From Gammaproteobacteria bacterium (GTDB lineage: Bacteria > Pseudomonadota > Gammaproteobacteria > Steroidobacterales > Steroidobacteraceae): a DNA stretch of 35,125 nt. The stretch covers positions 1 to 35,125 of the forward strand of contig JAOUGW010000008.1 in assembly GCA_029865465.1 (NCBI GenBank), read 5' to 3'. This document shows positions 2,183-31,907 of the stretch, piece by piece. Within the stretch, counting starts at the first letter, position 1. Each line of letters begins with the position of its first letter. The translations under genes were made by a program, and so were the position numbers. The notes under the pieces are model-generated. The model did not search any database and was not told the DNA's origin. It worked only from the letters and a program-made list of their open reading frames with translations.

Positions 2183-4264
2183 ATGACTTCGCCCAGCCCA
2201 TCCGGCCACCAGAATGCCCTGGCTGCCGAGACCAGTCCTTACCTGCGCCAGCACGCCTCGAACCCCGTCGACTGGCATCCCTGGGGGCCCGACGCACTCG
2301 AACTCGCGCGTAAGCTCGACAAGCCGATATTGCTGTCGATCGGGTATTCGGCCTGCCACTGGTGCCACGTGATGGCCCACGAATCCTTCGAAGATCCGGC
2401 GACCGCCGCGCTCATGAACGAACTGTTCGTGAACATCAAGGTGGACCGCGAGGAACGCCCCGACATCGACCGCATCTACCAGACCGCACACCAGGTGATG
2501 AACCAGGCGGGCGGCGGCTGGCCGCTCACGATGTTCCTGGCGCCCGATTCGCACCGGCCGTTCTTTTCGGGCACGTATTTCCCGCCCGAGCAGCGCTACG
2601 GCATGCCTGGCTTTCGCGCCGTGCTCGAGAAAGTGGCCGATTTCTACCAGACGCGCCGCGGCGACCTCAAGGAGTACGGCGACAAGCTGGTCGACGTGCT
2701 CGGGCAGCTGCAGCCACCCACGGATTCGTCGGGCGGCGGGCTGTCGAGCGAACCCCTGCTGACGGCCCGTGCGACGCTGCAGCGCGAATTCGACGGCAGT
2801 TTCGGTGGCTTCGGCGAAGCTCCGAAGTTTCCGCACCCGGCCAACCTCGAATTCCTGCTGCGCACCTGGCGCGCCTCGGCCGCGAGCGACGAACCCGACC
2901 TGCAGGCGCTCTACATGGTGACGCTTACGCTCACGCGCATGGCCGAAGGCGGCCTGTACGATCAGCTCGGCGGCGGCTTCTGCCGCTACTCCGTCGATCA
3001 GTACTGGATGATTCCGCACTTCGAGAAGATGCTGTACGACAACGCGCAGCTGCTCGGCGTGTACGCCCAGGCTGCCATCGCCACCGGCGAGCCGCTGTTC
3101 CGTCGCGTCACCGCAGAAACGGCCGAGTGGCTGCTGCGCGACCTGCGCTCGCCCGAGGGCGGTTTCTACTCGACGCTGGATGCGGATTCCGAAGGCCACG
3201 AGGGCAAGTTCTACGTCTGGACGCCGGACGAGGTGCGCGACCTGCTCGATGTCGAGCAGTATGAGCCTTTCGCCCAGCGCTTCGGCCTCGACCGCGACGC
3301 GAATTTCGAAGGCCAGTGGCACCTGCACACGTTCAAGTCGATCGCCGACATCGCGGCCGAACTGCGGCTCGATGAAGCCACGGTCGAAGCGCGCATCGAC
3401 GAAGCGCGTGCGCGACTGCTCGACGTTCGCAATGCGCGCGTCTGGCCGGGCCGCGACCAGAAGATCCTCACGTCCTGGAACGGCATGGTGATCGGCGGGC
3501 TGGCACGCGCCAGCCGTGCGCTCGAACGCGACGACCTGGCAGGCGCCGCCGTGCAGGTCATGCATTTCCTGCGGGCACGCTGCTGGAAGGATGGCCGACT
3601 GCTGGCCGTGCACACGGACGGCGAGTCCCGCTTCGCTGCCTACCTCGACGATTACGCCATGCTCGCGTGGGGCCTGCTCGAACTCGTCGAAGCGCGCTGG
3701 GATGCCGACGCCCTGGCCTGGGCCGTCGAGCTCGTCGACGTGATGCTCGAGCACTTCACCGATCACGAGGCCGGCGGATTCTTCTTCACAGCCGACGACC
3801 ACGAGTCGCTGATCCTGCGGCCAAAGACGTTCTCGGACGATGCCACGCCCGCCGGCAATGGCGTGGCCGCGCGTGTCCTGATCCGGCTCGGTTACCTGCT
3901 CGGCGAAACGCGCTACATCGACGCGGCGGAAGCGACGCTGCGTTCGGCGCACGCGGCCATCGAGCGCTACCCGCACGGGCACGGCACGCTGCTGATGGCG
4001 CTCGAGGAATTCACGTCGCCGCCGTGGATACTGGTACTGCGCGGTGAGAGTGACGAGCTCGACGTGTGGCGCAGCGAAGTCGACAAGCTTTACGACCCGC
4101 ATCGCATGATCGTGGCGGTACCCGCCGATGCCCGGAATCTGCCGGCCGCTCTGGCCAGCAAGCGAGCCCTGGGTGGTGCGGTCGCTTACGTGTGCCGCGG
4201 CATGACGTGTTCACCGCCGGTGCCTACACTCGCGCAGCTGGTGCGCGAATTGCGAGGTCAGTAA
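2183..4264 (+). CDS. DUF255/YyaL-family thioredoxin-fold protein (spermatogenesis-associated protein 20 homologue)
   Basis: A 693-residue protein typical in length and order for the YyaL/SPATA20 family. The N-terminal thioredoxin-like DUF255 domain (about 10-170) carries the diagnostic SACHWCHVM motif with Cys58 and Cys61. A long alpha-helical (alpha/alpha)6-toroid region resembling GlcNAc 2-epimerase/glycosidase folds follows. The C-terminus keeps the conserved [10 protein letters not shown] segment. There is no signal peptide, so a cytoplasmic location is expected. The family's biochemical function is not settled; the fold suggests redox or sugar-related chemistry, which is inference. It is transcribed alone, divergent from rlmI, and ends just before the large inverted-repeat element. 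The start at 2183 follows a modest AGG-type ribosome site and precedes the conserved N-terminal [21 protein letters not shown] block. Confidence 0.93.
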
Positions 4265-4542
4265 GGCGTCAGGTCATGAGCGTGGGCCTCACGGCCCGCG
4301 GCAGGGGCTCCGGTCTTCCTCTGCGCTCCGTGTCGAACGCCGCAGTTTGAACGCAGGTGCGAGGCGGCGCTGCCGGTTATGTTGCTTCTCTGACACCATC
4401 GCCTCGCACCCGTTCGAGCAAGGCTCGCCGTGAATCGTGCGGTTCCTCCGCGCGATTCACGATGCGCGTGAGACCCCGGAGCGCAGAGGAAGACCGGAGC
4501 CCCTGCCGCGGGCCCCTGCGATCTCCCTCTCCCGACCGGCGC
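4265..4542. other. 278-bp convergent intergenic region
   Basis: Between the DUF255 and M23 peptidase stops. Nearly all of it is the structured inverted-repeat element at 4293-4514. A further small hairpin GGGCC-TCAC-GGCCC (4284-4297) overlaps its left end. I see no gene and no T-tract terminator here. Confidence 0.8.
4293..4514. repeat. 222-bp structured element with perfect 38-bp terminal inverted repeats
   Basis: The left arm at 4293-4330 and the right arm at 4477-4514 are exact reverse complements over 38 bases. Inside are further nested inverted repeats. GGTGCGAGGCG (4356-4366) pairs with its complement at 4400-4410 and is extended by GAACG/CGTTC with a two-base bulge. A small CGAGC-AAG-GCTCG hairpin lies at 4415-4427. 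A 14-bp stem (one G-T pair) with a five-base loop joins 4430-4443 to 4449-4462. The whole could fold as a multi-branched cruciform or RNA. It sits between the convergent stops at 4264 and 4543, filling most of the only gene-free stretch here, and has no open frame that looks coding. There is no T-tract, so it is not a classical terminator. It may be a small non-autonomous mobile element, a REP/BIME-like unit or a bidirectional processing/termination structure; I cannot tell which. Confidence 0.9.
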
Positions 4543-5484
4543 TCAATACGCCGTCAGCGGCTGCCCGCTCCGCGGCGTCACGCTCGCGCCGCCGGGCCCT
4601 GCAAACGCGATCGGGACCGACTCGCTGCGCAGGCCGACGTTGCGCAGCACCACGAAATGCAGGTGCGGTCCGCTCGAAAACCCCGTATTGCCTGAATTGG
4701 CGATGTATTCGCCTCGCGCGATCCGCTGGCCGGCCCTCACCCGCACCGTGTCGAGCTGCAGGTGTGCATAGATCGCGTTGGTGCCGTCGTCGTGCATGAT
4801 CTGCACGAAGTTGGCCTCGTCCATGTTCTGCGGACTGAGGCCGGTCTTGAAGTGCCGTGCGGCCACGTTGATTACCAGCCCGTCGCGCGCCGCGTGAACG
4901 GCCGTGCCGACAGGCATGGCGATATCGACGGCATTGCGGCTCGACGGGTCGACGTGCGTGACGGCGTCGGGCGGTGCCTGTGTCACCCGGAACCGCTGCG
5001 CCAGCGCAAACGGCGCGCGATAAGGTTGCGCTGGCCGGTGCTGCGCACCGGGTTCGCCGACCACGTAGCCGTATTCGTAGCGGATTTCCGCGGGCGCAGC
5101 GGCCGCCGCAACGTCGAGCAGGACTCTTTCCGATCGCGGCGACACCGTCCCGCGCCCAAGTTTCTGGCCAGCGGGGGTTTGCGCCTTGACGGCGAACTCC
5201 ACGATGCACTGGCACTCATTGATCGCCACCAGCGCGACACCCGCGTCGGTGGACCGCGGCTCCACGACCATCCTCAGCGCCGCTCCGCCGCCGCGCCCCA
5301 GCGCCACGCTCTGTGACGCCTGGCCGGGCGGTGGGGGCCGATCGGTGTAGACCCACTGGCCGCTCGAATCCTTGTAGCGGTAGGCTGCACCGGGCGACAC
5401 GCTCCAGACGGACAGGACGCCGACGAGCACCCAGGCGATCCCGAAGATCGGCCGGAATCCCGCGGGGCTGTGACTGGGACGCAT
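4543..5484 (-). CDS. Secreted M23 (LytM-type) peptidase with N-terminal DUF4124
   Basis: Predicted exported zinc endopeptidase or LytM-type factor acting on peptidoglycan. From the ATG at 5484 the product has a hydrophobic segment (FRPIFGIAWVLVGVLSVWSV) serving as signal peptide or anchor. A DUF4124 motif (AYRYKDSSGQWVYTDRPPPPGQ-like) follows, then a beta-rich linker and a C-terminal M23 domain. The metal-site pattern is present: THVDPSSRNAVDIAMPVGT supplies His and Asp, and SSGPHLHFVV supplies HxH, so it may be catalytically competent. An upstream in-frame GTG at 5505 would add seven residues; neither start has a good ribosome site. It is the last gene of the long minus-strand run, 50 bp after the HIT gene, and ends near the inverted-repeat element. 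Confidence 0.88.
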   Translation of the reverse strand: MRPSHSPAGFRPIFGIAWVLVGVLSVWSVSPGAAYRYKDSSGQWVYTDRPPPPGQASQSVALGRGGGAALRMVVEPRSTDAGVALVAINECQCIVEFAVKAQTPAGQKLGRGTVSPRSERVLLDVAAAAAPAEIRYEYGYVVGEPGAQHRPAQPYRAPFALAQRFRVTQAPPDAVTHVDPSSRNAVDIAMPVGTAVHAARDGLVINVAARHFKTGLSPQNMDEANFVQIMHDDGTNAIYAHLQLDTVRVRAGQRIARGEYIANSGNTGFSSGPHLHFVVLRNVGLRSESVPIAFAGPGGASVTPRSGQPLTAY

Positions 5485-19748: not shown

Positions 19749-19930
19749 CCTCTGTCCATTGACCTGAGAGATCGGGAGCCGGCCCCAGGCCGACGCCGCA
19801 CCCCTTCGGTGGGTCCGCAACGAGGCGGACCGCTCTCCAGAGCCCATCAGGTGCTGCCGTTGTTTTGCCTGAGCGTTTCCGGGCGGGTTGCGCCTTCGGC
19901 GGGCCATTTTCCGGCCACTCTTCGGACAGA
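19747..19930 (-). ncRNA. Tandem glycine riboswitch (gcvT leader)
   Basis: Two glycine aptamers in tandem on the minus strand. Aptamer I (about 19930-19843) contains CGCCGAAGGCGCAA (19901-19888) and CTCAGGCAAAAC (19873-19862). Aptamer II (about 19842-19747) contains CTGGAGAGCGG (19840-19830), CACCGAAGGGGTG (19812-19800) and the pattern CTCTCAGG followed by GGACAGAGGGG (19770-19747). The closing helix CTCTG/CAGAG joins 19842-19838 with 19754-19750. These are the diagnostic conserved blocks of the class. The second aptamer abuts the intrinsic terminator, so transcription of gcvT-H-PA-PB-dgkA is expected to rise when glycine is abundant. The exact 5' end is not determined. Confidence 0.95.
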
Positions 19931-19939
19931 CCTTGCGAT

Positions 19940-31717: not shown

Positions 31718-31907
31718 TTGGCGCCGCCTGCGGTGTTCGACACGGGCCGGGTTACCTCTCGACCTTAATGTAAATACCCCGGGGAACGGTCAGTCGGCAA
31801 CATTGTGCAAGTCCGCCTCGAGCGGGAAGCCTTAAGTGCCGCGGCCCTCCCCAAATATTGCTCTTGTCGAGAGCAATGGTCTGTGACGGCACAGGCGGGT
31901 GGCGCCT
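31718..31907 (+). ncRNA. ssrS: 6S RNA
   Basis: A roughly 190-nt region between zapA and fau, the standard 6S locus; E. coli 6S is 184 nt. The closing stem pairs GGCGCC and GCCTG (31720-31730) with CAGGC (31892-31896) and GGCGCC (31901-31906). The conserved block GAAGCCTTAAG lies at 31826-31836, about 105 nt from the 5' end as in E. coli GAAGCCTTAAA. The 3' arm has the hairpin ATTGCTCT-loop-AGAGCAAT (31857-31877) followed by GGTCTGTGACGGC, matching the layout of the E. coli 3' arm. It regulates sigma70 RNA polymerase by mimicking an open promoter. The exact ends are estimated. Confidence 0.9.

Follow-up and report, generated by a model that had tools for sequence, protein, structure and literature searches.

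The element at positions 4293–4514 of the DNA analysed here (a stretch of 35 125 nucleotides, hereafter the window) is one copy of a dispersed mobile DNA repeat family that is apparently undescribed. It was tentatively interpreted as a non-autonomous mobile repeat, defined by its structure and settling where genes end (3′), with an outer stem that would be kept up by template switching between its two arms. Copying of one arm from the other is the preferred account of the stem, held at just under an even chance.

The outer stem, P1, consists of a 5′ arm (4293–4330, +) and a 3′ arm (4477–4514, +) of 38 nt each. The arms are 100% complementary, in agreement with an earlier note on this DNA that had described perfect 38-bp inverted ends; they were delimited by arm match, and the stem boundary by comparison of 40 copies. 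The convergent gap described in the same note was also recovered: the stop codons of the neighbouring genes end at 4264 (+) and 4543 (–), 28 bp from the element on either side. The upstream gene (2183–4264, +) was assigned by domain match to DUF255/Thioredox_DsbH (PF03190) and the convergent gene (4543–5484, –; start codon called by a simple script) to the M23 peptidases (PF01551). The RNA folding energy of the element was –174.1 kcal/mol, compared with a mean of –98.0 (sd 5.0) for 200 shuffled sequences, none of which was as low (z –15.3). The overall fold is predicted to be a T: P1 forms the outer stem, and within it lie hairpins P2 (whose loop is variable) and P3, the unpaired linker between them and two junction strands. 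The 5′ junction strand TGTCGAACGCCGCA (4331–4344, +) is the most conserved piece, conservation being counted on 4331–4343. It is followed by hairpin P2 (4345–4419, +), in which an imperfect stem (4345–4367 with 4399–4419) encloses the variable loop (4368–4398), as indicated by the fold and by covariation. The unpaired linker AAGGCTCGC (4420–4428, +) was read by eye from alignments of copies. Hairpin P3 (4429–4461, +), with the loop TTCCT at 4443–4447, was located as an inverted repeat and in the fold, and the 3′ junction strand ATGCGCGTGAGACCC (4462–4476, +) from alignments of copies. The interior is thus a three-way junction with two side-by-side hairpins, and the branched interior announced in the earlier note was retained while its three nested hairpins were not: the small middle hairpin GAGC-AAG-GCTC (about 4416–4426) lacks conservation, with one base that varies among copies and a left half that is paired within P2. 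On the minus strand, the tip of P3 (window 4440–4450 and relatives) reads GGAGGAACC, which by eye resembles a ribosome-binding sequence; this tip is retained in locus L057 despite a different P3 stem there (by eye). Elsewhere in the window, a 6S RNA was detected at 31722–31905 (+; 69.5 bits, above the gathering score) and a glycine riboswitch aptamer at 19848–19935 (–; 53.1 bits).

Copies were searched with two covariance models. Model R1 was built from 21 copies and omitted the degenerate L049:590, L055 and L042 and the copies found later. It gave 31 matches (E up to 0.01) in four of the nine genomes of the genus (G000, 6; G004, 14; G007, 10; G005, 1), the weakest of which were degenerate copies; a weak match in G008, cut off at a contig end, was set aside. 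The window's own genome carries several copies. Model R2, built from 34 copies, found five copies in G000 as against six by R1 and, at E up to 0.001, 15 in G012, 5 in G199 and 6 in G053. At the family level, 11 of 217 genomes had a match, including G211 and G181, whose loci (L093 and L094) were set aside as weak and without the T fold. With R2 and stricter filters, 8 of 396 genomes of the order had a match, all within the family of the window; in these scans of over 40 genomes few candidates were scored per genome, and misses are weak evidence. One of the eight genomes, G233, is doubtful: its match (L100:1426–1660) is a very long palindrome near the end of the fetched stretch and is likely an assembly artefact. 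Five genera were accepted as carriers, namely that of G000 and four others (those of G012, G053/G199/G200, G044 and G174), in which the copies are divergent. A pattern scan of a named collection, which may omit records near the window's own, yielded 14 stretches, 13 of them in metagenome-assembled genomes of uncultured Gammaproteobacteria or Proteobacteria. The 14th (L109, Alphaproteobacteria) was rejected as a chance match, having no T fold and at most 13.5 bits with R2. No match was obtained in plasmids, phages and E. coli genomes by similarity search, or in viral contigs with one exact pattern. Nothing in Rfam reached the gathering score within the element, the four weak matches being far below the cut-offs. 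Full copies span 204 to 267 bp (without degenerate rows and one row with a script-overextended stem). No description of the family was noticed in openly licensed papers, and as far as searched the family is new; stem-loop families have been surveyed elsewhere (PMC2267715, consulted in part). The search of the genome and its relatives with covariance modelling, which the earlier note had recommended, therefore revealed a multi-copy family with covarying stems and not a single-copy, non-conserved, non-covarying sequence.

Three members of the genus have the element at this gene pair and three others lack it. In the latter (G001, G006 and G008), the same two facing genes have 4, 6 and 34 bp, respectively, between their stop codons. 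The DUF255/thioredoxin-like gene is followed by a different gene in G003 and by another gene in G005, where the peptidase was matched only at the locus end; G002 yielded no more than the start of the gene. The element was either gained in the G000/G004/G007 clade or lost elsewhere, gain being the simpler reading. At the stem foot, a direct repeat of 4 was present in 2 of 25 copies (0.08, vs 0.06 with shuffled flanks) and one of at least 6 in none of the 25, in a test blind to any unit that extends past the foot. The lack of an obvious target duplication, remarked upon in the earlier note, hence extends to these 25 copies, with none above chance, and no conserved terminal sequence was found at their stem feet. 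The non-autonomous mobile element that the note had listed among the candidate roles is supported by the copy number and by the element-free sites in relatives, but neither a transposase nor a target duplication nor a conserved end came to light. Between one gene pair, the element lies in opposite orientations in G000 (L040:838–1057) and in G004/G007 (L044:297–518 and L050:943–1162). A spacer flip was considered for L040; given how different the arms and the P2 type are, an independent insertion in the gap is as likely. A composite transposon was also considered for the back-to-back pair of L110, which encloses 3.3 kb; no transposase was recognised there, and by eye the reading frames of the interval suggest a toxin–antitoxin pair together with an ankyrin protein. 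The two adjacent small reading frames that resemble a toxin–antitoxin pair lie at L110:1781–2427 (by eye). Short CTCTCCCGC...GCGGGAGAG palindromes recur in the flanks of L039, L045, L081 and others.

The end of P1 was tallied over 40 copies, three of them cut off and orthologues included. Watson–Crick pairing was found in 500 of 520 cells at pairs 1–13 (96%), 469 of 477 at pairs 14–25 (98%) and 404 of 467 at pairs 26–37 (87%); it fell to 75 of 151 at pairs 38–41 (50%) and to 76 of 222 at pairs 42–47, with shares of 28–34% beyond pair 41. Because the Watson–Crick share collapses there, P1 has a sharp end at about 37–38 bp in most copies, with differing letters; pairing is lost earlier in a few copies, including L057, L092 and L095. 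The arm letters differ among most copies. In G012 they are largely common: seven aligned copies share much of the arms as well as the core, which points to a recent spread that carried the arms along. The unusual feature of the element is that its arms are free in sequence yet fixed in length and complementarity. The non-Watson–Crick cells at pairs 1–37 of the 40 copies comprise 40 G–T, 19 A–C and 32 others; the G–T excess favours RNA pairing, though some G–T pairs are shared by descent. In an alignment of 21 copies made with no reference to structure, the 13 outermost pairs showed 57 both-sided and 4 one-sided changes and 12 broken or gapped cells. In the model-fitted alignment of 34 copies, which leans towards the structure, 300 both-sided cells were counted compared with 61.9 in shuffles, and covariation over the entire structure is well in excess of that in shuffles and slid controls. 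Both alignments strongly support the structured element that the note had proposed. Covariation alone cannot separate RNA structure, DNA structure and copying.

The mode of change of the arms was followed in eight comparisons of orthologous loci (W, the window copy, L043 and L052 as three; L044/L050; L053/L048 twice; L049/L054; L039/L046). The three comparisons among W, L043 and L052 are non-independent and the counts are small. Four-fold sites in the flanks of these loci differ by 0.18–0.27. Recency, suggested in the earlier note as a reason for the perfect arms, is insufficient alone, since orthologues with a divergence of about 18–27% at flanking four-fold sites still have perfect or almost perfect arms. 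Among 303 pair-sites, 253 were unchanged and 36 had changed on both sides to another Watson–Crick pair; 11 had changed on one side (4 to G–T and 7 to other mismatches) and 3 on both sides to a combination that is not Watson–Crick. The arms had thus changed at 50 of 303 pair-sites (0.165 per pair-site), compared with 615 of 2891 neutral four-fold sites (0.213). Transitions made up 15 of the 36 paired changes (0.42) and 285 of the 615 four-fold changes (0.46; Fisher p = 0.61). Compensation through G–U predicts more transitions and a slower pace; as neither was seen in the eight comparisons, copying by template switching, which predicts the observed pace and spectrum, fits better than stepwise compensation. 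Clustering of adjacent paired changes was not significant (6 seen vs 3.5 expected, p = 0.12). Two pairs of loci stand outside this count: L041/L086 (indels, contig end), with three changes in 36, one of them paired and two one-sided (by eye), and L056 with its collapsed orthologue L171 (found later), in which the shared arm has 0 changes in 37 bases and the flanks are 89–90% identical. Both pairs changed little and show that the arms evolve at an uneven pace, which counts against copying.

Several copies were rearranged or collapsed. L171 has retained a perfect arm of 37 bp and lost most of the core. In the collapsed second copy of L174 (G000), 3 G–T pairs and 1 mismatch persist in 34 pairs, so correction of the arms is not automatic. 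The orthologue of L045 (L172) has two different, new perfect hairpins, that of L078 (L173) has lost one arm, and in L042 and L175 the P3 stem is extended outward and P2 is gone (all by eye). L042, L175 and L172 look like template-switch products; perfect palindromes made in one step are an outcome of template switching (PMC8794818 and PMC8604942, both consulted in part). In five fetched copies (L052, L078, L084, L041 and L086), P3 was exchanged for a longer, unrelated palindrome. The AAATAGG type stands apart as a repeat in its own right, matched 38 times by a pattern in G007 when both strands are counted. These palindromic repeats, of the AAATAGGTGAGCG / AAATAGGGGACG type, often form close opposite pairs and also occur within P3 of L052, L078 and L084.

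Change was unevenly distributed over the core in the same eight comparisons. The 5′ junction strand differed at 2 of 104 sites (0.019, vs 0.21 neutral), the 3′ junction strand at 10 of 119 and the linker at 6 of 72. The corresponding counts were 20/360 for the P2 stem, 34/248 for the P2 loop, 8/168 for the P3 stem and 4/30 for the P3 loop (both without L052), and 23/208 for the inner 13 pairs of P1. These counts suggest that the 5′ junction strand is held by function or by conversion between copies, and the rest of the junction less so. Across genera, with G012 as an exception, the linker reads GCRAGG followed by CGCC or TGCC and is accompanied by unrelated stems (by eye).

The element favours gene 3′ ends. 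Both flanks could be resolved at 13 loci of the genus, of which 10 are convergent and the other three adjoin one 3′ end; this hand tally relies on gene calls made by a simple script, leaves out degenerate and collapsed copies, and scores L047 as convergent in spite of its partial orthologue L084, which is not convergent. The binomial p was 1.3e-4 against a generous background of 0.25; the window itself has 30 gene junctions, of which 2 are convergent, including the one that the element occupies. At loci that adjoin a single 3′ end, the element is oriented against the gene in L038, L051, L039/L046, L081 and L055/L083, and likewise in L084, L088 and both L110 copies. Copies L091, L095 and L096 of G012, more than 200 bp from any called gene, are exceptions to the 3′-end rule. 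At all seven paired loci seen (L053/L048, L049, L174, L098, L102, L089 and L110), the two copies are back-to-back; paired loci concern a minority of copies, some second members are weak, and L089 and L102 may be orthologous.

In the preferred reading, a mutation in one arm would soon be transferred to its partner when replication switches template between the two. The stem would thereby be kept perfect while its letters drifted at a pace not far below the neutral rate, and purifying selection, or conversion between copies, would preserve the 5′ junction strand. The element may act as a very stable 3′ UTR fold of the preceding gene, stopping 3′-to-5′ decay and read-through from the opposing gene, and may be spread by a putative enzyme that recognises the junction and not a terminal sequence. 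The constant stem length is unexplained by template switching. Selection against any mismatch (e.g. in a DNA cruciform), together with conversion from other copies, could produce the same pattern. A more specific proposal, possible if rather unlikely, is that the terminal inverted repeats are nearly free of sequence information: complementarity and a fixed distance of about 38 bp from the conserved three-way junction would matter, the arms being copied from each other, the element recognised and spread through its folded junction and the stem length set as by a ruler.

If the element were a functional 3′ UTR or small RNA, ordinary compensatory changes under selection on the RNA could maintain the stem without any copying between arms. 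The strong covariation, the conserved 5′ junction strand, the placement at 3′ ends, the surplus of G–T over A–C mismatches (40 to 19) and the unchanged arm of L056/L171 all agree with this. The near-neutral pace of the arms (0.165 vs 0.213 at four-fold sites) and the lack, in the eight comparisons, of the transition excess expected via G–U do not, nor do the rearranged palindromes at orthologous sites, and we consider this explanation unlikely. Both arms could also be altered at once if whole elements were overwritten from other copies by interlocus gene conversion. The family is indeed multi-copy and, in a tree of the cores in which most forks are weakly supported, the two L048 copies group together, apart from their L053 counterparts, L044 and L050 are ungrouped, and the window copy stands apart from L043/L052. 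Against such overwriting, L049/L054 (starred), L039/L046 and L043/L052 group by locus in the same tree, and most copies differ in arm letters; it was judged distinctly unlikely.

Two further explanations concern the nature of the element as a whole. It could be a giant REP mobilised by a Y1 (RAYT-type) transposase, since REPs are similarly placed at 3′ ends and in convergent gaps and similarly paired (PMC3733652, consulted in part), and here too the pairs are back-to-back and target duplications are lacking. However, of the REP tags sought at the palindrome foot, GTAG occurred in none of 25 copies and CGTC in 5 of 25, not regularly. A Y1_Tnp domain (PF01797) was present in six of the nine genomes of the genus and was not found in G001, G004 and G007; these are draft genomes, so absence is weak evidence, but G004 and G007 are the richest in copies. 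Mobilisation of this kind appears quite improbable. The bidirectional intrinsic terminator put forward in the earlier note is favoured by the perfect, GC-rich stem within a convergent gap, and both hairpin and position fit. The T-tract does not: none was seen at the stem foot at any of 50 strand ends (25 copies), and a terminator scan of 3900–4900 found none. A conserved junction and dispersal would moreover be superfluous for a terminator, and that the element is this and nothing more is hardly credible.

Whether perfect long stems are maintained by slow compensation through G–U or by one-step copying of an arm is posed as an open question in the part of PMC8794818 consulted. The family offers many natural replicates, orthologous and paralogous, with adjacent neutral yardsticks, and for the most part the pattern points to copying. 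Should this be confirmed, strong covariation could come largely from mutation; caution would then be due before RNA function is taken as proven by covariation, and conserved terminal sequence could be dispensable for a mobile element.

The element behaves like a giant repeat of REP or MITE type without REP tags, target duplications or a T-tract. REP, REPIN and BIME sequences associated with RAYT are palindromic and mostly extragenic; they are found at the 3′ ends of genes and in gaps that are either convergent or unidirectional, frequently as opposed pairs (PMC3733652, consulted in part). The element is placed likewise, mainly at 3′ ends and between convergent genes, and also forms opposed pairs; unlike REPs, which measure 20–40 bp, it is about 220 bp long and has a three-way junction and an outer stem free in sequence. 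MITEs keep conserved terminal repeats, usually together with a target duplication. The terminal sequence of the element, in contrast, varies between copies and no duplication was seen, while its dispersal, its copy number and its presence or absence at orthologous sites are those of a MITE. ERIC/RU and other bacterial MITEs are small dispersed inverted repeats, some of which lie at gene 3′ ends and affect the mRNA (PMC10969869, consulted in part). The element also resembles TIMEs in being short and non-autonomous with a terminal repeat of about 38 bp. The terminal repeat of TIMEs and Tn3 has about this length, and Tn3 makes a 5-bp duplication. The arms of the element vary from copy to copy and have no duplication at the foot, which sets it apart from TIMEs as they are generally described. 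TIMEs are miniature elements derived from Tn3 (PMC4133298, consulted in part). TIRtrons, the repeats of TIR-flanked Y1 transposases, carry the motif GGGGWSAS (PMC3733652, consulted in part), which AAATAGGGGACG in the palindromes replacing P3 (L052, L078 and L084) partly resembles; unlike TIRtron repeats, these palindromes are separate repeats inside some copies and not the element itself. The closest parallel for the behaviour of the arms is provided by template-switch hairpins (quasipalindrome correction), with homogenisation of arms, new perfect hairpins made in one event and inversion of the spacer (PMC8794818 and PMC8604942, both consulted in part). In the parts of these sources consulted, it is a mutation process, traced in genes for RNAs and in those of yeast; in the present family, it would keep up the ends of a bacterial element that is dispersed.
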